DNA of 64,000 nt, taken from the NCBI GenBank assembly GCA_031459855.1, contig JAVKHP010000001.1, forward strand, positions 912,059-976,058, given 5' to 3'. Made by a program: the position numbers and the translations under genes. The notes beneath the pieces are model-generated. The model was not told where the DNA came from, did no database searches, and worked only from the letters and a program-made list of their open reading frames with translations. Below are positions 3,213 through 63,921 of the stretch, piece after piece. This DNA comes from Armatimonadota bacterium (GTDB taxonomy: Bacteria > Sysuimicrobiota > Sysuimicrobiia > Sysuimicrobiales > Humicultoraceae). Within the stretch, counting starts at the first letter, position 1; the number at the start of each line of letters is the position of its first letter.

Positions 3213-4589
3213 ATGAGGACCAGAGCGATCGCAGGCCTCGCCGCTGTGGTGGCGCTGGCCGCAGGGGTGAGCCTGACCGGACCGACCGCGGCGAGCCCCA
3301 CCAGCGGGCCGACGCTGGTTGCGCAGGCCCCGCGCATCCAGCTCGAGTTCTGGCACGGCCTCCGGGGGCCGCTGGGCGAAGCCCTGGAGTCGATCGTCGC
3401 GGGCTTCAACGCCTCCCAGACGCGCTACCAGGTCAACGCCACGTTCAAGGGATCGTACCCCGAGACGATGGTGGCGGCCATCGCCGCGTTCCGGGCGGGC
3501 AACGCGCCCCACGTCGTGCAGATGTTCGAGGTCGGCACGGCCACCATGATGGCGGCCAAGGGGGCGATCAAACCCGTGCACGAGCTGATGCGGGAAGCGG
3601 GCATCCCCTTCGACCCCAGCATCTACCTGCCGGCGGTCCGCAGCTACTACAGCGACGCCGCCGGCCGCATGGTCTCGCTGCCGTTCAACACCTCGACGCC
3701 GGTCCTGTGGTACAACAAGGACGCCTTCCGCCGGGCCGGTCTGAACCCCGACGCGCCACCCAAGACCTGGAACGAGGTCCGGGCGGCGGCCCAGCGCATC
3801 CGGGCGGCCAACGCCGCGCCCTGCGGGTTGTCCACGGCGTGGCCGACGTGGGTGCAGGTGGAGAACTTCGGCGCGATCCACGACGTGCCGTTCGCCACGA
3901 AGGCCAACGGGTTCGAAGGCACCGACGCCGAGCTCACGCTCAACCTGCCCCTGTACGTCCGCCACCTGCAGTTCCTGGTGGACATGCTCCGGGAGGGAAC
4001 CTTCAAGTACGGGGGGCGCGACGCCGCCGGCGACGCGCTGGGGCCCTCGGGCGAGTGCGCGATGCTCACGGCGTCGTCGGCCCTGTTCGCCCGCTACCAG
4101 CGCGAGGCCAAGTTCGACTGGGGCGTCACGTTCCTGCCCTACTACGACGACGTGAAGGGCGCGCCGAAGAACTCCATCATCGGCGGCGCCAGCTTCTGGG
4201 TGATGACCGCGCCGCGGCGGACCGCCGAGGAGTACCGCGGGGTCGCCGAGTTCTTCCGCTACGTGAGCTCGCCCGAGGCGTCGGCGAAGTGGCACATGGA
4301 GACCGGCTACGTGCCCATCACCTTCACCGGCGCTCAGCTGGCGCGTGCCACGGGCTTCTACCAGCGGAACCCCTGGGCGGAGATCCCCATTCAGCAGCTC
4401 ACCCGCACACCACCCACGCGGAACTCGCGCGGCCTGCGGCTGGGCAACCTCGTGGAGATCCGGGTGGTGCTCTACGAGGAGATGGAGCGGGCGTTCCAGG
4501 GACAGCAGACGGCGCAACAGGCGATGGACAACGCGGTGCGCCGCGGGAACCAGATCCTGCGCCGCTTCGAGCGCACCGCAGGGCTGTAG
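3213..4589 (+). CDS. ugpB: UgpB-type ABC transporter substrate-binding protein
   Basis: 458 residues. A signal peptide spans about 1-38 (MRTRAIAGLAAVVALAAG, cleavage near AQA). The mature part starts IQLEFWHG and continues with FNASQTRYQVNATFKG and PFNTSTPVLWYNKDAFR, the pattern of family-1 solute-binding proteins closest to UgpB (glycerol-3-phosphate or glycerophosphodiester binding). It is followed by a glycerophosphodiesterase and two matching permeases (UgpA and UgpE types), so the substrate is probably a glycerophosphodiester. No ATPase gene is found in the set; a shared MsmK/UgpC-type ATPase elsewhere would be needed. A GGGGG ribosome site precedes the ATG. Confidence 0.9.
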   Translation: MRTRAIAGLAAVVALAAGVSLTGPTAASPTSGPTLVAQAPRIQLEFWHGLRGPLGEALESIVAGFNASQTRYQVNATFKGSYPETMVAAIAAFRAGNAPHVVQMFEVGTATMMAAKGAIKPVHELMREAGIPFDPSIYLPAVRSYYSDAAGRMVSLPFNTSTPVLWYNKDAFRRAGLNPDAPPKTWNEVRAAAQRIRAANAAPCGLSTAWPTWVQVENFGAIHDVPFATKANGFEGTDAELTLNLPLYVRHLQFLVDMLREGTFKYGGRDAAGDALGPSGECAMLTASSALFARYQREAKFDWGVTFLPYYDDVKGAPKNSIIGGASFWVMTAPRRTAEEYRGVAEFFRYVSSPEASAKWHMETGYVPITFTGAQLARATGFYQRNPWAEIPIQQLTRTPPTRNSRGLRLGNLVEIRVVLYEEMERAFQGQQTAQQAMDNAVRRGNQILRRFERTAGL

Positions 4590-11086: not shown

Positions 11087-11893
11087 GTGCGTACCGCAGC
11101 CGAGTGGCGGCAGGAGATCCGGGCCGGGCGCTGGAGACGGCCCACCGCAGGCCTGGCGCCGGGGTTCGTGCAGGCCAACCTGGTCGTCGTGCCCGCGGCA
11201 GCGGCCGACGAGTTCCGGCGCTTCTGCGAGCGCAACCCCAAGCCCTGCCCGCTGCTGGAGGTCACCGCGCCGGGCGACCCCGAGCCGCGCCGGACCGCGC
11301 CGGGTGCCGACCTGCGCACCGACCTGCCGCGCTACCGCGTCTTTCGCGACGGCCAGATGGTCGAAGAGCGGGACGACCTGCACGACCTCTGGCAGGACGA
11401 CTTCGTGGCCTTTCTGCTCGGCTGCTCGTTCACCTTCGAGGAAGCCCTGCTGCAGGCGGGCCTGCGTCTTCGCCACCTGGACCTGGGCCGGAACGTCTCC
11501 ATGTACGTCACCACCCGGCTGTGCGAGCCGGCCGGACCGTTCGCCGGCCCGCTGGTAGTGAGCATGCGGCCGTTCCCGGCGGACGACGTGCCACGGGTCG
11601 AGGCAATCACCGCGCGCTACCCGCTGGCCCACGGCGCCCCGGTCCACGCCGGCGACCCGGCCGCGCTTGGGATCGCCGATCTGGCCCGGCCCGACTTCGG
11701 TGATCCCGTCCCGGTGGACCCCGGCGAGGTCCCGGTCTTCTGGGCGTGTGGCGTCACCCCGCAGGTGGCGCTCCGGCGGGCCCGGCTGCCCATCGCCATC
11801 ACCCACGCGCCGGGCCACATGTTCATCACCGACCTGACCGCGGACCGCATCGCAGGCGTGGCGCCGGGGAGCGTGCTCGTCCCCGGCTGCTGA
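11087..11893 (+). CDS. DUF1445 / YcsI-type putative hydro-lyase (D-glutamate cyclase family)
   Basis: About 268 residues. The start of the domain is clear: [25 protein letters not shown], followed by [14 protein letters not shown] and [17 protein letters not shown], and ending [13 protein letters not shown]. These match DUF1445, whose vertebrate member is a D-glutamate cyclase and whose bacterial members are listed as putative hydro-lyases. GTG 11087 has GGTGAGG six bases upstream; GTG 11072 or 11075 are possible. It precedes the Liv transporter genes, which suggests amino-acid-related metabolism. Confidence 0.85.
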
Positions 11894-11913
11894 CGCACAG
11901 GGAGGGAGCAACG

Positions 11914-13266
11914 ATGAGGAGCACCAGGCGGACGTCCCCGGACGCACGTCGGACGCATCGTGCACCGTCGGCGGGGTGGCCGGCGATGCGGATCACCAGA
12001 CGGAGGTTCCTCAGGTACACCGGCGCGGGGCTCGGGGCGCTGGTCATCGGCGACCGGCTGGCGTCTGCCCTTGCCGCCCAGGACGCGACGATCCCGGTCG
12101 GTGCCGTCTACCCGCTCTCGGGCGCGCTGGCGCGCATCGGCGCCGGGATTCGCAACGGCATCGAGCTGGCGGTCGACATCGTCAACAACGCCTACCCCGA
12201 CCTCACGCTCCCGCTGGCTCCCACCGCCGGACTGCCCAAGCTCGGCGGCCGCAAGATCCGGCTGATCTGGGGCGACAGCCGCGGCGATCCGGCCACCGGC
12301 CGCGCCGAGGCCGAGCGCCTCATCGAGCGCGAGCGCGTGGTGGCCCTGATCGGCTCTTACCAGAGCGCCGTGACGGCCACGGCCAGCCTGGCCGCCGAGA
12401 CCCGGGGCATTCCGTTCCTCAACCCGGAGTCGTCGTCGCCACGGCTGACCGAGCGCGGGTTCAAGTGGTTTTTCCGAACCGGCCCCCACGACACGACCTT
12501 CACCAAACTCTTCTTCGACCTCATGGAGGACATGAAGAAGCGGGGGCACCGGATCTCGCGTGTGGCGATCCTCGCCGAGGACACCGAGTTCGGCGCCACC
12601 GCCGCGGGCGTGGCCGATGGCTTCGCCCGGGTCTACAAGTACGACGTGGTGGCCAAGGAACTCTACACGTCGCCGCCCGCCAGCCTCACCGCCGAGTTCC
12701 TGCGCCTGCGCCAGGCCAACCCCGACGTCATCATCGGCGCCAACTACCTGGTCGATGCGGTGCTCATCGTCCGCACGCTCAAGGAGATGCGCTGGACACC
12801 GCAGGCGTTCATGGCCCACGCGGGCTTCACCACCGTGCCGGACTTCCTGCAGGCCACCGGCCGCGACGGCTGGTACTTCTTGGCGCGCGCGCCGTGGGCG
12901 CTGGGCATCGCCGCCCGCAAGCCGCTGGTCGCCCGGGTCAACGACCTCTACCGGCGCAAGTACAACGCCGACATGGACGAGGTGGTGGCGCGGGCGTTCA
13001 CCGGCATGCTGACCCTGGCCGACGCGCTGAACCGCGCGGGGAGTACTGCGCCTGCGGCGATCCAGGCGGCGCTGCGCGAGACGAAGATCCCCGGCGCGCA
13101 GCTCATCATGCCGTGGCAGGGGATCGAGTTCGACCAGTACGGCCAGAACAAGCACGCCGCCGGCATCATGACCCAGATCCTCGACGGCCAGTACAAGGTA
13201 GTGTGGCCGTTCGAGATCGCGGAGGCGCCGATCGTCTGGCCCATGCCGGCGTGGGATCGACGCTAG
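11914..13266 (+). CDS. livK: LivK-type branched-chain amino acid ABC substrate-binding protein, Tat-exported
   Basis: 450 residues. The leader contains TRRRFLRYTG, a twin-arginine motif, followed by a hydrophobic stretch and cleavage near ALAAQ. The mature protein starts IPVGAVYPLSGALARIGAGIRNG, typical of periplasmic-binding fold I proteins of the Liv/Urt class, with GSYQSAVTATASLAAE, the ligand-binding loop. The same operon carries LivH, LivM-LivG and LivF. ATG 11914 has GGGAGGGAG upstream. Ligand could be an amino acid or another small carboxylate. Confidence 0.9.
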   Translation: MRSTRRTSPDARRTHRAPSAGWPAMRITRRRFLRYTGAGLGALVIGDRLASALAAQDATIPVGAVYPLSGALARIGAGIRNGIELAVDIVNNAYPDLTLPLAPTAGLPKLGGRKIRLIWGDSRGDPATGRAEAERLIERERVVALIGSYQSAVTATASLAAETRGIPFLNPESSSPRLTERGFKWFFRTGPHDTTFTKLFFDLMEDMKKRGHRISRVAILAEDTEFGATAAGVADGFARVYKYDVVAKELYTSPPASLTAEFLRLRQANPDVIIGANYLVDAVLIVRTLKEMRWTPQAFMAHAGFTTVPDFLQATGRDGWYFLARAPWALGIAARKPLVARVNDLYRRKYNADMDEVVARAFTGMLTLADALNRAGSTAPAAIQAALRETKIPGAQLIMPWQGIEFDQYGQNKHAAGIMTQILDGQYKVVWPFEIAEAPIVWPMPAWDRR

Positions 13267-56806: not shown

Positions 56807-58030
56807 ATGCACAAACGGGAACCACGTAGGCTCACGGTGAGCATGGAACTGCTCGTCCTCGCTCTAGGAGCCATGTTGGTCTTTGCGCGTGCTCCGCTCA
56901 CCGGGCAGGCGTGGGGTGCCGCCGCCAACTGGCGCCAGAGCCCGGGCACGCTCACCGGACGGGTCGTCGACGCCATCTCCCGCACCGGCCTCCCTGCTGT
57001 TGTCTTCACCAAGGGAAACATGACCTGGGCAGGACAAACCGATGGCAGCGGCTACTATACGACGCAGCTGCCACCGGGCAGCTACTCCGTCATCGCCAGT
57101 CGCTCAGGATACAAGGAGGAAAAGAAGCAAACGCTCGTCAAGGGCGGCGCGACGACGCGGGTGGATTTCGCGCTCCAGCCGTTGAGTACCGCGATCGCGC
57201 CGAGTCCGACGCCCACGCCCACACCGACGTCAGCACCCACGCCGGCGTCCGACGAGATCGCCCAGTTGATCTACGAGTGGTTCGGCCCGCCGTTCCGCTC
57301 CGGGCTGGAGTACGGCTGGGGGCCGCCGTGGGGCCAGCATGAAGCCCGCCTGGCCACCAACCCGTCGTGGGACTGGACCGAAGGCGCCCGGCCAGCCCAG
57401 TGGGCGACCCCGCCGCCCGGGTACACCGCGATGAGCGGGTGGGGGCAGGTCGTGGAGGCCGCCGTCGGCATCGGCCCGACCAGGAACTTCCGCGTGCACG
57501 TTCGGTGGAACCGGCTCTACGCGTTCGTCAACGGGGTGTGGATCCTTGTGGAGTCCACCGAGCAGTACGGCATTCAGGGCGGGTGGTTTCGCACCAGCGA
57601 CTTCTCCGCTGCCAGCGGCTACGTCAGCTGGCGGCGGGAGGCCGAGGGGTTCTCGGTCTCCTGGCAATCCGCACCGCCTGGCACGTTGCTCCACTGGTGG
57701 ATCAACTCCTGGCCGCACCCCCTGATTCCGGCGGGCGCGACGGCCTTCTACGCGGTGGCGCAGATGCGGCTCATCCCCGACACCGACCCGGGCGCAGACC
57801 TGACGGCGGTCCAGGTCTACGGCGCCGTCGGCAACGACTGGTGGGACTCGCCGACGGGTCGTGGCGGGCCGGGGACGGGGATCCCACGGCACAAGCGCCT
57901 GACCACCCAGTGGAAGACCTTTGCGTCGGCCACGATCCCTGTCCCCGCACCGCCCAAGTACGACCCGAGCTACGACTACAACACCGCCGTGCGATCCTTC
58001 CTGCAACTGCCGCCGCTGTTCTACTACTGA
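56807..58030 (+). CDS. Secreted protein with carboxypeptidase regulatory-like domain and unknown C-terminal domain
   Basis: 407 residues from ATG 56807 (AGGAGGAAG). Signal segment MELLVLALGAMLVFA. Residues about 45-120 (GTLTGRVVDAISRTGLPAVVF, then TDGSGYYTTQLPPGSYSVIASRSGY) form a CarboxypepD_reg beta-sandwich. A Pro/Thr linker (PSPTPTPTPTSAPTPA) leads to about 260 Trp- and Tyr-rich residues without any family I recognise, ending FLQLPPLFYY. Probably exported and surface-associated. Codon use looks native. Confidence 0.75.
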   Translation: MHKREPRRLTVSMELLVLALGAMLVFARAPLTGQAWGAAANWRQSPGTLTGRVVDAISRTGLPAVVFTKGNMTWAGQTDGSGYYTTQLPPGSYSVIASRSGYKEEKKQTLVKGGATTRVDFALQPLSTAIAPSPTPTPTPTSAPTPASDEIAQLIYEWFGPPFRSGLEYGWGPPWGQHEARLATNPSWDWTEGARPAQWATPPPGYTAMSGWGQVVEAAVGIGPTRNFRVHVRWNRLYAFVNGVWILVESTEQYGIQGGWFRTSDFSAASGYVSWRREAEGFSVSWQSAPPGTLLHWWINSWPHPLIPAGATAFYAVAQMRLIPDTDPGADLTAVQVYGAVGNDWWDSPTGRGGPGTGIPRHKRLTTQWKTFASATIPVPAPPKYDPSYDYNTAVRSFLQLPPLFYY

Positions 58031-58150: not shown

Positions 58151-58435
58151 CTACTCCTGCATCCTGACCAGACCGCACCGCGCGAGATCCGCTACGAAGG
58201 CCTGCACGTCGACGACGAACGACGCCGGCGCATCCACCACGCGCTTGCGCAGTTCCTCCAGAACCTCGTCCAACGTGCGCGTGCCGTCGAGCAGGGTCCA
58301 GACGATTGCCCCCACCTCGTTCAGTCCGTAGTAGGCGCCCGACTCGAGATTGAGCAGAACGGCCCCTTCGCCCTCCGAGAGCTCTCGATGGACGACTCTG
58401 GGGTGCCTGTGGATCCGGACGTTCGTCGGCACCAT
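58151..58435 (-). CDS. PqqD-like RiPP recognition element (lasso B1-type)
   Basis: 94 residues from ATG 58435 (GGAGGGAG eight bases upstream; a GTG at 58456 is less likely). RVVHRELSEGEGAVLLNLESGAYYGLNEVGAIVWTLLDGTRTLDEVLEEL is the PqqD winged-helix fold, which binds leader peptides. In lasso peptide systems a stand-alone PqqD-like B1 protein presents the precursor leader to the B2 protease. Last gene of the precursor-exporter operon; 2-3 bp gap after the permease runs the other way (permease upstream). PQQ synthesis is unlikely because no PqqA, C or E is near. Confidence 0.88.
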   Translation of the reverse strand: MVPTNVRIHRHPRVVHRELSEGEGAVLLNLESGAYYGLNEVGAIVWTLLDGTRTLDEVLEELRKRVVDAPASFVVDVQAFVADLARCGLVRMQE

Positions 58436-58459
58436 GACTGCATCTCCCTCCGGCACAGG

Positions 58460-59308
58460 TCAGTACTGCCCCAGCGTGCCGGTGCGCAGCTCGCTCCGTA
58501 GGGCCAGCCGGAAGAGCCAGACGCCGCCCGCGAGGGCCAGGAGCGAGGTGGGTGCAAGCACCAGGAGCGCTGGGGTGACCGCAGCCCAGCTGCCGCCGCC
58601 GAGCAACGCCTCCCGGGTGGCATCGAGCGCGACGGCCACAGGGTTGCGGGCGGCGAACCCGGCTACCCACCCGGGCAGGAGCTCCCGGGGGAAGTAGGCG
58701 CCCGACCCGACCGCCAGGCCGTACCCTACGAGACCGACCACCGCCGGTACCCGCCGAAATCGCAGCACCGCAGCGGCGCTCGCAGCGCCCAGGCCACCGG
58801 CGAAGGGCACGAACAGGGCGAAGACGGCGGCCGCGGGCACGATGCCGCTCAGATGCACCTCCACGCCGAAGAGCACCGCCGCCACGACCAGGAACACCGT
58901 GATCTGCACCGGCAGGTAGAGGAGGTCGTAGGCCACGAGTCCCACGAGGATAGTCAGCTCCGAAGTGGGCGTCACCAGCAGCGACTCCAGCGTGCCGAGG
59001 AGTTGCTCATTGCGCAGGGCCGAGCCCACACGGCTCAACCCCAACTGCAGTAACGCGCTGATCGCGATACCCACCACCACGAACGCGAGGTACGTGGGAC
59101 GCGCCTCCCCGACCACGGGGACCCGGGCCGGATCGACGAGCCTCGCCACGAACGAAAAGACGACGACCTGCGCGATGAGATTGATCAGGTCGGAGACGAA
59201 CGCCAGCCGATAGCTCAACGCCGTGAGCAGGTCGCGACGCAGGAAGGCTGCCAGCTTGCCTACTTCCTGCCCCACGGCGCCCCAGCCGTGTTCGCGCCCC
59301 GCGATCAT
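58460..59308 (-). CDS. ABC-2 type exporter permease
   Basis: 282 residues with six hydrophobic segments. LSYRLAFVSDLINLIAQVVVFSFVARLVDP, then LRNEQLLGTLESLLVTPTSELTILVG (the ABC-2 cytoplasmic signature) and YFPRELLPGWVAGFAARNPVAVALDATRE. Forms a half-exporter with the ATPase encoded upstream (ATGA overlap). In this context the likely cargo is the mature peptide, giving export and self-protection. Confidence 0.88.
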   Translation of the reverse strand: MIAGREHGWGAVGQEVGKLAAFLRRDLLTALSYRLAFVSDLINLIAQVVVFSFVARLVDPARVPVVGEARPTYLAFVVVGIAISALLQLGLSRVGSALRNEQLLGTLESLLVTPTSELTILVGLVAYDLLYLPVQITVFLVVAAVLFGVEVHLSGIVPAAAVFALFVPFAGGLGAASAAAVLRFRRVPAVVGLVGYGLAVGSGAYFPRELLPGWVAGFAARNPVAVALDATREALLGGGSWAAVTPALLVLAPTSLLALAGGVWLFRLALRSELRTGTLGQY

Positions 59309-60330
59309 CGGTCCGTCGCCTCATGCATCGTCGATCCACTGCCTCGTGCACCGCCCGTGAGCCGGAGAAACGCCTCCTCGAGCCCCGGGCGTTCCTCGCG
59401 ACAGCTCAACACGTGAAAGCGGGCAGCACTGAGCGCCGCCAGCGCATCCCCCAGGACGGCGCCATTGTGCATGGTCAGCACGTAGTCTCCCGCGTCCTGC
59501 CCGCCCGCCCGTGCAATGGTCCCGTGGCGGCCGAGGGCCGCCTGGAGCTCCGCTGCCGACGGATGATTGCCACCCCGACCGTTCGTGACCCGGAGCACGT
59601 ACCGATCGGGTACCGTCTGCGCCAGCAGCTGCGGCACGGTGCCGCTGAACCTGACCATGCCCCGGTGGAGCAGCGTGACCGTGTGCGCGAAACCGCGGAT
59701 CTCGTCCACCCGCTGGGTGGCCCAGAGGACTGCCGCACCCTGGCGAGCGGCCGTGGCGACGAGTTCCCGTACCGTCCGACTGGCCTCCGGGTCGAGGTCG
59801 TGCGTGGCCTCGTCGATCAGCAGCACGGGAGGATTCGGGAGCAATGCCCGAGCAATGGCCAGTTTCTTCTGCATCCCGTGCGAGTAGGCCGCGACCCGCA
59901 GGTGGGCGACCCCGTCGAGTCCCACCTCTGCCAGCCTCTGCAGAGCCCGGGTCCGCGCCTCCCCGACGGTCATGCCCCACAGCCGACCGAAGAAGATCAG
60001 GTTCTCGAGCCCGCTGAGCCTGAGGTAGAACGTGCGGTCGCCCCCCGGCACGAAGCCGACCCACCGGCGAGCGGCACGCGGTGCCTCGGTGACCGGCCGC
60101 CCCATCAGTCGCACAGCCCCTGTTGTAGGCGTCAACAGGCCACAGAGGATCCGCAGCAGGGTGGTCTTCCCTGCACCATTTGGCCCGAGCACCGCGTGGA
60201 TCTCGCCCGCGGCGACCCCGAGGGAAACGTCCGACAACACCACCGCGGCGCCGTAGCGGTGACAAACACCAGAAACCTCCGCGGCATATCCCGCACCGCG
60301 GAGGTTCACGGTCTCCCTGTCTTCGTACAA
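59305..60330 (-). CDS. ABC exporter ATPase of the peptide cluster
   Basis: 341 residues from TTG 60330 (GTG 60309 is an alternative). Walker A GPNGAGKTT, Q-loop region FVPGGDRTFYLRLSGLENL, signature YSHGMQKKLAIARAL in place of LSGGQ, Walker B VLLIDEATHDLD. A C-terminal extension of about 100 residues follows the ATPase core, as in CcmA/DrrA-type exporters. Starts 44 bp after the precursor gene. Confidence 0.88.
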   Translation of the reverse strand: MYEDRETVNLRGAGYAAEVSGVCHRYGAAVVLSDVSLGVAAGEIHAVLGPNGAGKTTLLRILCGLLTPTTGAVRLMGRPVTEAPRAARRWVGFVPGGDRTFYLRLSGLENLIFFGRLWGMTVGEARTRALQRLAEVGLDGVAHLRVAAYSHGMQKKLAIARALLPNPPVLLIDEATHDLDPEASRTVRELVATAARQGAAVLWATQRVDEIRGFAHTVTLLHRGMVRFSGTVPQLLAQTVPDRYVLRVTNGRGGNHPSAAELQAALGRHGTIARAGGQDAGDYVLTMHNGAVLGDALAALSAARFHVLSCREERPGLEEAFLRLTGGARGSGSTMHEATDR

Positions 60331-60354
60331 CTCGCTCGGCGCGCCCGGACTCCT

Positions 60355-60378
60355 CTTGTCCCTACTACTTGTCCCTAC
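60355..60378. repeat. 13-bp tandem repeat between precursor and exporter genes
   Basis: CTTGTCCCTAC occurs at 60355-60365 and 60368-60378. The second copy contains the precursor stop codon. On the transcript it reads GTAGGGACAAG twice, just before the ATPase start. It might set the ratio of peptide to exporter, but this is speculation. Confidence 0.6.
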
Positions 60379-60581
60379 GACCTACCCACACATCCTTCCT
60401 TGGTTGTTCCCGGAAAGTCCAACCCCGAACCGCCGGACCGCTCGTTGTGCTGGTCGCAGTGCCAGATGTCCGTCCCGCCCTTGATCGTCGCTCCCACTGC
60501 GAACGTGTGGCGAGCGATCGATCCGAGTTCCATGAGCTCCGGCGGCTTGTACGTCACGAGACGCTCAAACGCTGGCCCCAT
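60375..60581 (-). CDS. Lasso-type RiPP precursor peptide
   Basis: 68 residues from ATG 60581 with a strong ribosome site (AGGAGGG). The leader has Tyr11, Pro14, Leu16, Gly20 and Thr26, a complete YxxPxLxxxGxxxxxT recognition motif for B1-type elements (GSIARHTF at 20-27). The remainder carries Asp38, Trp40, His41, Cys42, Asp43, Glu47 and a Gly/Ser stretch, then Cys64. If cut after residue 27 there is no Asp/Glu at ring positions 7-9. Rings of 8-9 residues would fit Gly30-Asp38, Gly35-Asp43 or Gly36-Asp43. First gene of the minus operon, divergent from the cyclase gene. Confidence 0.85.
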   Translation of the reverse strand: MGPAFERLVTYKPPELMELGSIARHTFAVGATIKGGTDIWHCDQHNERSGGSGLDFPGTTKEGCVGRS

Positions 60582-60693
60582 ACGTTGCCCTCCTCACCGA
60601 GGCGCCCATCCACCCCACTGCCCCATCCTAGGCCGACACCCGGGCGCGTCGCAATCCCTCAAAGGACAGATGCACGACCTGCACGGAGGGGAA

Positions 60694-60727
60694 TTTACCA
60701 GATAACCGCGTTGTGCTAGCATAGCAC
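60694..60727 (+). promoter_or_regulatory. Promoter of the cyclase operon with dyad over the -10
   Basis: -35 TTTACC (60694-60699), 17-bp spacer, -10 TAGCAT (60717-60722). An inverted repeat GTGCTA-GCA-TAGCAC (60713-60727) covers the -10 box, an ideal operator site. The predicted start is near 60729, only about 11 nt before the ATG, so the mRNA would be nearly leaderless, which fits the missing ribosome site. Confidence 0.6.
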
Positions 60728-60739
60728 GCACTGCGACTC

Positions 60740-62536
60740 ATGGGCGCCATTGCGGCGGTCTTCTCTCCGGGCAGGCACGTCGAGGCCGCCGTTCCCCGGC
60801 GGATGCTGGCAGCCTCTCCACACCGCGGGGCCGAAGCCCACGTCGTCTCCTATGGGGACACGGTGCTGGGTATCGCCATACGTCCAGACGATCGGGACGC
60901 GTGGGTCGCGCAGCGCGGCCCCCTGCTGGTCGGATTTGTCGGAACCCTGGACAACGCCGAAGAGTTAATAAAACTCTATAACATTGGGGTAAGCTTTAGC
61001 GCCCGAGCACACCCGGCCGACCTGGTAGCTGCGCTCTATCTGGCGCTGGGAGACAGCACTCCAGAAGTCCTCCGGGGAGCCTTCGCCTGCATCGTCACGG
61101 ACGGCACCAGGTTCGTGGCCTTCCGGGACCACCTGGGCCTTGGCACCCTGTTCTACCGGGAGGACGCGCAGGGGCTGTTCGTAGCCACCGAGGCCAAGCA
61201 GGTCGCGATCGGAGCCGGCATCTCCCTGCAGCCCGACCTCGAGGTCCTCGAGCGGATGTTCTACAACCTGTCGTCGGGCGACGCGTTGTCCTGCGCCCTC
61301 AAGGGCGTGCACCGCCTGCCCAAGGCCTCGATCCTCCGCGCCATCCCAGGCAAGCCGACCGTCGTCGCACGCTATTGGGCTCCGGAGCGCCTGCTCGAGA
61401 CCGCCCGGCTCTCCCTCGACGACATCCGAGCCCGCTTCGAAGAACTGATGGATCGTGCCGTGACCCGCGCCATGGCCGGCACACCTGTGTTGTCGCTCAG
61501 CGGCGGCATCGACTCGACAGCCGTCGCGGCCTTTGCGGCACCGGCGCATCTCCGGCTCACAGGCAGGCCCCTGCCGGCGATCACCCAGGTCTTCCCCGAC
61601 CATCCGACCGTGGACGAACGCCGGTACACGGAGATGGTGGCCGACTATCTGGGGATCACCTTGCACACCTACACGTCGGCAGTGGGGCACCTCGACGATC
61701 TCGACCACTGGGTGCGCCTCGTCGACGGCCCCCCGCTTGCGCTGTTACCCGAGATCGCGTACCAGCAACGGCTGGTGCGCAGGTTGGGATTCCGGACGGT
61801 CCTGACGGGCGAGTTCGGAGAGTTCGTCTACGACATGCGCACTGCCCTCGTCACCCACCTGGCGGCCAAGAAGCGCTACGCGGCGCTATGGCGGATCTTC
61901 CGTACGTGGCCGGCTGACGGCATGTTGCGGGCACAGCTGGCCCGTGACGTCCTCGCGGCTTTCGTCCCTCTTCCCCTTGCAGTGGCGTACCGGCGCCTCG
62001 TCCGGAGGCGCGGCAACCCCATGCTGCCCGACTGGATAGACCGCCGTCTGGGCAGCCGGGCGTTCTACCATCACCACCTCAACACTCCACCGGGGCGCCT
62101 GTGGTCGGAAGCGCAGCTGGTGGCGTTCACCGAACCGAGCATCGGCATGGAATCGCTGGAAATCTGCGGGGCGTTCCACGGCGTCCGGACGCGCCAGCCG
62201 CTGGCGGACGTGGACCTTTGGGAGTTCTTCCTCTCCCTCCCCGCGGAAGTGAAGTACCCCGAGAGGCTCTCCAAAGCCCTGGTGCGGTCACTGCTGCGGG
62301 GTAGACTCCCCGACGCCGTGCTGGCCCGCAGGGACAAGACCGTCTTCGACGAGTTCGCCGTCGCCAAGACAGACTACACGGCGCTGCGACGGTGGCTGCT
62401 GAACGGCTCGTATCGCATGCCGGGAGTGGACTACGCCCGGCTGCAGGCACAACTGGACCGTCAGGACTTCGCGCTGCGGGACGTCGTGTGGGCCAACGAC
62501 CTGGCGGCAATCCACGCGTTCGTGAGCCTCTGGTGA
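60740..62536 (+). CDS. Asparagine synthetase-like lasso cyclase (C protein)
   Basis: 598 residues. The N-terminal half has the class II amidotransferase fold (GFVGTLDNAEELI, FRDHLGLGTLFYRED, FVATEAKQVAI), but the nucleophile Cys2 is replaced (MGAIAAVF), so glutamine cannot be used. The synthetase half has the PP-loop SLSGGIDSTAVAAFA (254-260) and TGEFGEFVYD. Loss of Cys2 is the hallmark of lasso cyclases, which adenylate an Asp/Glu side chain and close the macrolactam. Start overlaps nothing; see the promoter entry. Four bases separate it from the next gene. Confidence 0.9.
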   Translation: MGAIAAVFSPGRHVEAAVPRRMLAASPHRGAEAHVVSYGDTVLGIAIRPDDRDAWVAQRGPLLVGFVGTLDNAEELIKLYNIGVSFSARAHPADLVAALYLALGDSTPEVLRGAFACIVTDGTRFVAFRDHLGLGTLFYREDAQGLFVATEAKQVAIGAGISLQPDLEVLERMFYNLSSGDALSCALKGVHRLPKASILRAIPGKPTVVARYWAPERLLETARLSLDDIRARFEELMDRAVTRAMAGTPVLSLSGGIDSTAVAAFAAPAHLRLTGRPLPAITQVFPDHPTVDERRYTEMVADYLGITLHTYTSAVGHLDDLDHWVRLVDGPPLALLPEIAYQQRLVRRLGFRTVLTGEFGEFVYDMRTALVTHLAAKKRYAALWRIFRTWPADGMLRAQLARDVLAAFVPLPLAVAYRRLVRRRGNPMLPDWIDRRLGSRAFYHHHLNTPPGRLWSEAQLVAFTEPSIGMESLEICGAFHGVRTRQPLADVDLWEFFLSLPAEVKYPERLSKALVRSLLRGRLPDAVLARRDKTVFDEFAVAKTDYTALRRWLLNGSYRMPGVDYARLQAQLDRQDFALRDVVWANDLAAIHAFVSLW

Positions 62537-62540
62537 ACGC

Positions 62541-63473
62541 ATGCCCGACGTATCACCGCACGGGTGGAAGGAAACGACCGGCACCTGCTACGGGCTGCAG
62601 GTCGCGTCGTCGTTACCGTTCGCCTACCTGCGCGCCGGGGCCGGAATCCCGCTGGACGTGGCAGTCGGCCCGTCGCCGCCCATACCCCCGGGCGCCCGCC
62701 TCCTCCGGGAGTGGCCGGCGCGGCCGGGGCGCACGCTGTTAGCCCGCCTGTACCAGGATGGCACGCGCTACCTGTTCTGGAACGAACTCGCGGAGGTCTT
62801 CGTGGTGGAACCCGCCACGCTCCGGGTGACGGTGCCCGACATGGACCCGGTCCGCCGCGAGGACATCCTCTGGGGCATCCCCGCGAGCCTGTGCCTGCTA
62901 CACCTGGGGCACCTACCGCTCCACGCCGCAGCGGTGGAGGTCGACGGTGGAGCGGTCCTCTTTGCCGCGCCGGGCGGATTTGGGAAGACCACGCTGGCCG
63001 CAGCGTTCCACGCGGCCGGGCATCGTGTGCTCTCGGAGGACATTGCCTGCGTGACGACGCAGGCATCGCCGGCCGTGATCCCAGGTCCCGCCAGCCTGCG
63101 TCTTCGGCCGGACGTGGCCGACCACCTGGCTCTCCCGGGCGTCCAGGTCGTCAGGCGCACCGACGTCCGGATCAGCCTGGCGCTCGACCGAGCCTGCCGC
63201 GGGCGGTGCGACCCCGTGCCCATCAGGGCGGTCGTCTTCCTGCGGGTCGCACGCGACATCGCCGTGACCCGCGTACGGGTCACCGACGCCATCCCGGACC
63301 TGTGGACGCTGAGCCAGTCCTACGTCGACGATGCCGAGCACGCCCGGTGCTTCAGACATGTCGTTGACCTGGCCCGCAGCGTCCCCCTGTGGAACGTGTA
63401 CCGGCCCCTGCGGTTCGATGCACTCCACGGCACGATCGAGCGGATCCTGTCGGTCTGCCTGGCCAATGTCTGA
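62541..63473 (+). CDS. HPr kinase-like protein of the RiPP cluster
   Basis: 310 residues. P-loop APGGFGKTT at 143-151 preceded by LPLHAAAVEVDGGAVLF, then RVLSEDIACV, the pattern of HprK-like kinases found in many lasso clusters (e.g. paeninodin-type), where such kinases phosphorylate the precursor C-terminal residue. Here the precursor ends in Ser, a possible target. The N-terminal 110 residues form a beta-rich region without a recognised name. Confidence 0.85.
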   Translation: MPDVSPHGWKETTGTCYGLQVASSLPFAYLRAGAGIPLDVAVGPSPPIPPGARLLREWPARPGRTLLARLYQDGTRYLFWNELAEVFVVEPATLRVTVPDMDPVRREDILWGIPASLCLLHLGHLPLHAAAVEVDGGAVLFAAPGGFGKTTLAAAFHAAGHRVLSEDIACVTTQASPAVIPGPASLRLRPDVADHLALPGVQVVRRTDVRISLALDRACRGRCDPVPIRAVVFLRVARDIAVTRVRVTDAIPDLWTLSQSYVDDAEHARCFRHVVDLARSVPLWNVYRPLRFDALHGTIERILSVCLANV

Positions 63474-63921
63474 CCGTCGCGCGCGGCTCTCGCTCGCCGA
63501 CAAGACCCGCCTGGCCGCGCGCGTCTGGGGCGCGTACGTCCTCGTCCGACTGCAGGTGCACCGGTGCCCCTTGCCCGACCTGGTCGCACGTCTCGGCACC
63601 CGGTCAGGCCCGGTGCGCCATCGGTACGCGCCGGCATCACTGTCTCGAGCGGTGCATCGTGTCTTGGGCATGCGCCTCACCGAGCAGACCTGTCTCGTAC
63701 GCGCACTGGTCCTGTACCGGCTCCTGCGGGCCCAAGGGGACGATGCCGAGCTGGTGATCGGACTTCCGCCGCGTCCGGTCGACCACAAGGCCCACGCGTG
63801 GGTGGAGCTAAACGGCGTCGACCTGGGCCCGCCCCCGGGGCGGGGCGCATATGAGCCCCTGGCGCGATACCCCGCGCGCCCGGTCACGACGGTGTCCGAC
63901 CAACTCAAAAGAGCGCCTTGA
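63466..63921 (+). CDS. Transglutaminase-like lasso leader peptidase (B2 protein)
   Basis: 151 residues from ATG 63466, overlapping the kinase gene by 8 bp. Cys76 (EQTCLVRALVLYRLLRAQG), His110 (KAHAWVELNG) and Asp119 form the Cys-His-Asp triad of the Transglut_core3 family that includes McjB C-terminal halves and stand-alone B2 proteins. It cuts off the leader when it is presented by B1, which is encoded in the divergent operon. Confidence 0.92.
   Translation: MSDRRARLSLADKTRLAARVWGAYVLVRLQVHRCPLPDLVARLGTRSGPVRHRYAPASLSRAVHRVLGMRLTEQTCLVRALVLYRLLRAQGDDAELVIGLPPRPVDHKAHAWVELNGVDLGPPPGRGAYEPLARYPARPVTTVSDQLKRAP

Follow-up and report, generated by a model that had tools for sequence, protein, structure and literature searches.

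A seven-gene cluster with lasso-type enzymes and a kinase, and a precursor family that may give rise to phosphorylated side-chain macrolactams

The gene cluster

We analysed a stretch of 64,000 nucleotides from an Armatimonadota bacterium (assembly GCA_031459855.1, contig JAVKHP010000001.1, positions 912,059 to 976,058), referred to here as the window, in which positions 58151-63921 carry a gene cluster for a ribosomally synthesized and post-translationally modified peptide (RiPP). The genome is 3.19 Mb in size and 98% complete, and the phylum is a little-known one of soil and hot springs. The open reading frames (ORFs), together with Pfam and NCBIfam profile matches, give seven genes in two divergent groups. 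The minus-strand group consists of the precursor, the ATPase and permease of an ATP-binding cassette (ABC) exporter of DrrAB type, and the recognition protein B1; the plus-strand group consists of an asparagine-synthetase-like cyclase, an HprK-like kinase and the leader protease B2.

A preliminary description, made from the sequence alone, had proposed a RiPP cluster with B1 leader recognition, B2 protease, cyclase, HprK-like kinase and exporter, and had placed B1 and B2 in separate divergent groups with the precursor beside the exporter. The profile matches and the 16 loci described below support the proposal, and the gene positions agree with the grouping. All seven genes lie at the coordinates and on the strands that it gave, apart from the start codon of B2, which we corrected to 63466.

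The precursor has no match in Pfam or NCBIfam and is the sole leader-like match across the whole window. Upstream of its ATG we read GAGGAGGG as the ribosome-binding site. No match to a sigma-70 promoter or a terminator was found in 60300-60760, which says little for this phylum.

Table 1. Genes of the cluster and features of the precursor, in window coordinates
Feature	Position	Strand	Evidence
B1, PqqD-like RiPP recognition element, 101 aa	58151..58456	-	Pfam PqqD PF05402 6.2e-17; solved TbiB1 (5v1u) 6.5e-6
ABC-2 exporter permease, DrrB-like, 282 aa	58460..59308	-	PF01061 4e-13; drrB 4.6e-11
ABC exporter ATPase, DrrA-like, 341 aa	59305..60330	-	PF00005 3.4e-29; TIGR01188 8.6e-56
Precursor peptide, 68 aa	60375..60581	-	15 homologues adjoining homologous cyclases
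Leader, residues 1-27 (Y11, P14, G20, T26-F27); predicted B2 cut after F27	60501..60581	-	Cut predicted from Tyr-to-Thr spacing
Predicted core, residues 28-68, C-terminal S68	60378..60500	-	Motif K-x7-9-[DE]-x3-E-x-S
Conserved K34	60480-60482	-	
Conserved D43	60453-60455	-	
Conserved E47-x-S49	60435-60443	-	
Asparagine-synthetase-like cyclase, 598 aa	60740..62536	+	Asn_synthase PF00733 4.6e-28; GATase_7 9.1e-10
HprK-like kinase, 310 aa	62541..63473	+	HprK_rel_A TIGR04352 4.6e-13
B2 leader protease, transglutaminase-like, 151 aa	63466..63921	+	PF13471 3.8e-15; NF033537 lasso_biosyn_B2 54 bits, cut-off 33

Related loci

A scan of genome contigs with a single cyclase sequence returned no matches, while an alignment-based scan returned nine loci. 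With the window included, the family comprises 16 related loci, their cyclases 38-46% identical. Homologous precursors next to homologous cyclases were what the preliminary description had staked its proposal on, and such pairs occur in 16 loci. The precursor, cyclase, B1, B2, kinase and ABC exporter are found together in every complete locus, and a gene set that recurs in this way with a homologous precursor is far beyond chance.

Within the phylum of the window, relatives of the cyclase were present in 3 of 43 genomes. Further relatives came from records titled Gemmatimonadetes, Thermoleophilia, Actinobacteria, Jatrophihabitans, Nocardioidaceae and Spirochaetaceae; these names are taken from the assemblies, several of which are metagenome bins, so mis-binning is possible. 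Samples elsewhere gave low rates (4/349, 2/346, 2/27, 1/250 and 4/397), which include the genome used as the centre of each sample, share some matches among searches and, in the large samples, are lower bounds, only the top few candidates per genome having been scored. Plasmid records contained no cyclase match, and in IMG/VR the only cyclase matches were at 21-22%. A second asparagine-synthase-like match in one relative (G035, L008/L013) was rejected from the family: it begins with MCGIVG, as a glutamine-dependent amidotransferase does, and lies among glycosyltransferase genes.

The divergent layout of the window is repeated exactly in the loci of two other genomes (L037 and L038), where it accompanies a homologous precursor, as the preliminary description had advised looking for. 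That description had also called the arrangement apparently new, a claim that is weak, the order in the window being one of several in a freely varying family. B1 and B2 also lie on different strands in L016, L017, L018 and L040, all genes run in a single direction in L010, L015 and L039, and the genes on the opposite strand are the kinase and B2 in L016 and L018 and the kinase alone in L019. We therefore rejected the divergent gene order as a novel feature; it is real variation but minor, and not the point of interest. The unit ATPase-permease-B1 is kept wherever a DrrAB-type exporter is present. No such pump was found in L011, L014, L017 and L021, where a large ABC ORF nearby is probably an McjD-like half-transporter; the precursor follows the kinase in L011, L014 and L021. 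L040 has an extra B1 gene (3461-3769) and additional B1/B2 genes (11262-11989), with no second cyclase in the stretch read, and a search near these genes for a second lasso-like precursor found none.

The precursor family

All 16 precursors share a leader with a YxxP motif and a Thr-Phe pair whose Thr is exactly 15 residues past the Tyr. In lasso leaders the Tyr is at position -17 and the Thr at -2 (PMC10368454). Since the spacing is the same, B2 is predicted to cut after the T-F pair. A lasso ring joins the N-terminal amine to an Asp or Glu at core position 7-9 (PMC8498205). Counted from T-F, only one of the 16 precursors has an acid there, against 5.1 expected from composition, and in the window these three residues are K, G and G. 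The preliminary description had taken the window gene for an ordinary lasso precursor; the absence of this acid in 15/16 members, and the conservation of a different motif, speak against it.

That motif is K-x7-9-[D/E]-x3-E-x-S, present in 15/16 precursors when 0.03 were expected from shuffled cores; its acidic part, [DE]-x3-4-E-x-S, is present in all 16, with 0.38 expected. The motif was found and tested on the same sequences and the shuffles treat these as independent, so that the expected values serve as orientation and do not amount to a formal test. The precursors are related to one another, yet they are paired with cyclases about 40% identical from several phyla. The conserved Lys is the sole invariant amine. 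A linker of 6-40 residues separates it from T-F, and in 15/16 members it precedes the Asp by 8-10 residues and the Glu by 12-14, while the core positions of the two acids vary from member to member (14-49 and 19-53). The members L037 and L038, a pair, share an identical block, HKDHIVCETDKFGEYSCGS, but have different linkers and tails.

The ring assumed in the preliminary description would begin at Gly30 and close on Asp38 as the ninth residue (GATIKGGTD), that is, an ordinary lasso peptide in another register. A Gly eight residues ahead of an Asp does recur in the window, G013, G037 and L014. When tested by register, however, this ring fails across the family: L019 and L020 lack an acid at 7-9, the Thr would sit at -4 or -5 and not at -2, and neither the invariant Lys nor the D-x3-E-x-S block is explained. 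We regard it as very improbable.

The strongest rival to the Lys lactam proposed below is a true lasso peptide whose core is displaced, although we judge it rather unlikely. Here the core would start after the conserved Lys (GGTDIWHCD-QHNERS... in the window), a ring of 8-10 residues (8 or 9 in most members) would form between its N-terminal amine and the conserved Asp, around a threaded tail, and the leader would vary in length. Counted after the Lys, 13/16 members have an Asp or Glu at 7-9 (Gly1-Asp9 in the window), and the full lasso enzyme set is present. On the other hand, the invariant T-F at normal Thr(-2) spacing would be unexplained, and the variable linker before the Lys fits poorly. 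B2 would have to cut at Lys-X, 6-40 residues downstream of T-F, and a second protease was not seen in the clusters. The core would begin with G, S, D, N or Q, and the ring would have to span 10 residues in L015 and L017 and 6 in L018.

The last residue is Ser in 10/16 precursors (P 3e-7 given the Ser frequency; the window precursor ends in GRS), and a Ser or Thr lies within the last three residues in 15/16. The number of Cys residues per core is 0, 2 or 4 in 15/16 members and 3 in one, which suggests disulfides. Together, the C-terminal Ser and the even Cys counts fit a structured, phosphorylated product.

The enzymes

The Cys and His of B2 are conserved in an alignment of 16 members. The cyclase has both asparagine-synthetase domains with an intact PP-loop (SGGIDS), and in an alignment of members read from the start codon the N-terminal glutaminase Cys is absent. 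The window cyclase scored 125 bits against the lasso-specific model NF033535, below its cut-off of 525, and, level with this, 123.5 against the generic AsnB model, also below cut-off. An AlphaFold2 model of the cyclase (predicted local distance difference test, pLDDT, 86.8) is nearest to TsnB9, beta-lactam synthetase and AsnB. No lasso cyclase structure was among its structural matches; as of 2024 none had been solved (PMC11420955).

The kinase model (pLDDT 91.2) is nearest to PEPCK and HprK/P folds. In an alignment of 14 members the His, the Walker Lys and the ED pair of the H..GK-T..ED motif are conserved. Lasso kinases carry a His-Lys-Asp-Asp motif (PMC9266682); the kinase here has the same motif with Glu in the third place, ED instead of DD. 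PadeK-type kinases phosphorylate the C-terminal Ser (PMC9266682), whereas BsfK (PMC10368454) and LppK (PMC13381572) act on core Ser3.

A possible route to the product

The best reading of these data is that lasso-type B1, B2 and cyclase, with an obligate kinase, define a multi-phylum RiPP family whose product would be a phosphorylated macrolactam. B1 would bind the YxxP leader and present the precursor to both the kinase and B2. The kinase would phosphorylate a Ser, most likely the C-terminal Ser or the invariant Ser of E-x-S, and B2 would cleave after T26-F27. The cyclase would then adenylate the side chain of D43 or E47, and attack by the side-chain amine of K34 would close an internal Lys-Asp/Glu macrolactam, leaving the N-terminal arm free and of variable length; the product would be exported by the DrrAB-type pump.

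From a cut after T-F, an N-terminal ring of 7-9 residues is impossible, because the first conserved acid is at core residue 14-49. Since the acids are too far away for a lasso ring and the Lys is the only invariant amine, we favour a Lys to Asp/Glu lactam made by lasso-type machinery on a non-lasso core, a reading that we hold tentatively. The variable linker of 6-40 residues is what would be expected of an arm outside the ring. We also counted in favour of this lactam a cyclase that retains the PP-loop without the glutaminase Cys, and in favour of a phosphorylated product the kinase in every complete cluster and the Ser end of 10/16 precursors. The wider proposal, that a lasso-type cyclase has switched its nucleophile from the N-terminal amine to an internal Lys and now makes phosphorylated side-chain macrolactams in several phyla, possibly tied to surface polysaccharide, is one that we advance with somewhat more reserve.

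Several points weigh against the Lys lactam. The literature searched gave no precedent for a lasso-type cyclase that uses a Lys side chain. The position of the Asp, 8-10 residues past the Lys in 15/16 members, would also suit a lasso ring if the core began after the Lys, and the Lys could have been kept for binding to the cyclase or for the activity of the peptide. Two acids are conserved, and on the present sequences either could be the acceptor. Finally, the spacing in L018 (538-1179) differs, with 6 residues from Lys to Asp and 5 from Asp to Glu; this altered spacing also offers a helpful natural means of telling which of the two acids is used.

Polysaccharide surroundings

The sugar genes directly beside the window cluster are a surface polysaccharide locus. 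Convergent with B2, at L004:13967-18583 (from window position 63908 to past the window end), lie genes for a weakly GH88-like protein and, just beyond the window, for a Bac_transf sugar transferase (9.7e-59) and two glycosyltransferases. Near the related loci we found genes for flippases, sulfotransferases, glycosyltransferases, a UDP-sugar dehydrogenase and NTP_transf_5 proteins, among flanking genes that were chosen by hand and have no background rate. The NTP_transf_5 genes (L014:4627-6237, L016:6759-8516 and L040:5653-7026) are likened to the NTP-transferases of paeninodin-type and linear polyphosphorylated peptide (LPP) clusters by family name only; none was seen among the window flanking genes tested. 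On the other side of the window cluster, a plus-strand ORF at 56807-58030 probably encodes an exported protein with a CarboxypepD_reg domain and a Ser/Thr/Pro-rich linker. It adjoins the cluster, and no link was found.

Such surroundings raise another explanation, in which the cyclase acts as a ligase or amidase that joins the conserved Asp or Glu to an outside amine, for example that of a polysaccharide amino sugar, and the product is a linear peptide that is phosphorylated and linked to a sugar. About half of the loci examined, the window among them, have sugar or polysaccharide genes at their flanks, a frequency that is only suggestive given the hand-chosen genes. The LPP family, linear phosphorylated peptides first seen within capsular polysaccharide loci (PMC13381572), offers a parallel, and NTP_transf_5 genes adjoin three of the loci. 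This explanation nevertheless leaves the invariant Lys unaccounted for, and its neighbour frequency has no background rate; moreover, the pairing of B2 with the cyclase is that of lasso clusters, and both are absent from the LPP core gene set. We consider it improbable.

Novelty and implications

No publication on this precursor family was found in the open-licence literature, the search being confined to that literature to the exclusion of subscription papers and protein databases, and its novelty is accordingly provisional. Because the acid that normally closes the ring is missing from the precursors, which instead share another, strictly conserved motif, the product is probably a phosphorylated peptide of a new kind, closed by an enzyme. 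If cyclization through Lys is correct, lasso-type cyclases are not limited to N-terminal rings, which would widen the targets for genome mining and provide a new enzyme for side-chain lactams. If instead the core is that of a displaced lasso peptide, the Thr(-2) rule for calling lasso cores is unsafe. Under either reading, tools that expect an Asp or Glu at 7-9 after Thr(-2) would call wrong cores for this family.

Comparison with known systems

The closest likeness is to split B1/B2 lasso peptides of the fusilassin/fuscanodin type (compare microcin J25), with which the family shares a B1 RiPP recognition element, a B2 cysteine protease, an asparagine-synthetase-like cyclase, an ABC exporter, the YxxP leader and the Thr(-2) spacing. 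It differs in the lack of an Asp or Glu at core 7-9 in 15/16 members, in the conserved Lys and D-x3-E-x-S, and in the variable linker. B1, B2 and the leader follow the lasso pattern, and the cyclase scores level with the lasso-specific and the generic models; the core, counted from T-F, does not obey the ring rule, and for this reason we class only the enzymes as lasso-type and not the cluster as that of a lasso peptide.

With the phosphorylated lasso peptides of paeninodin type (PadeK, ThcoK, SyanK, PsmK; also BsfK) the family has in common the HprK-like kinase, the C-terminal Ser of most precursors and the split B1/B2, as well as NTP_transf_5 genes beside L014, L016 and L040. The window itself has both the HprK-like kinase in the cluster and the C-terminal Ser on the precursor that mark this type. 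In contrast to it, the kinase is present in every complete cluster and has the ED motif, the core departs from the Gly1-Asp8/9 pattern, and the exporter is mostly of DrrAB type.

The LPPs of Bacillota (PMC13381572) resemble the family in the YxxP leader with Thr 15 residues after Tyr, the recognition element, the HprK-like kinase and the polysaccharide gene setting. However, the leader protease of LPPs is signal-peptidase-like and they lack their own cyclase, and since a cyclase and B2 occur in every complete cluster here, we do not assign the cluster to them.

Graspetides, which are omega-ester or omega-amide peptides, are made by ATP-grasp ligases. As a matter of general comparison, they would share Lys-to-Asp/Glu side-chain lactams with the present family if the favoured reading is true, whereas the only candidate ligase here is asparagine-synthetase-like.

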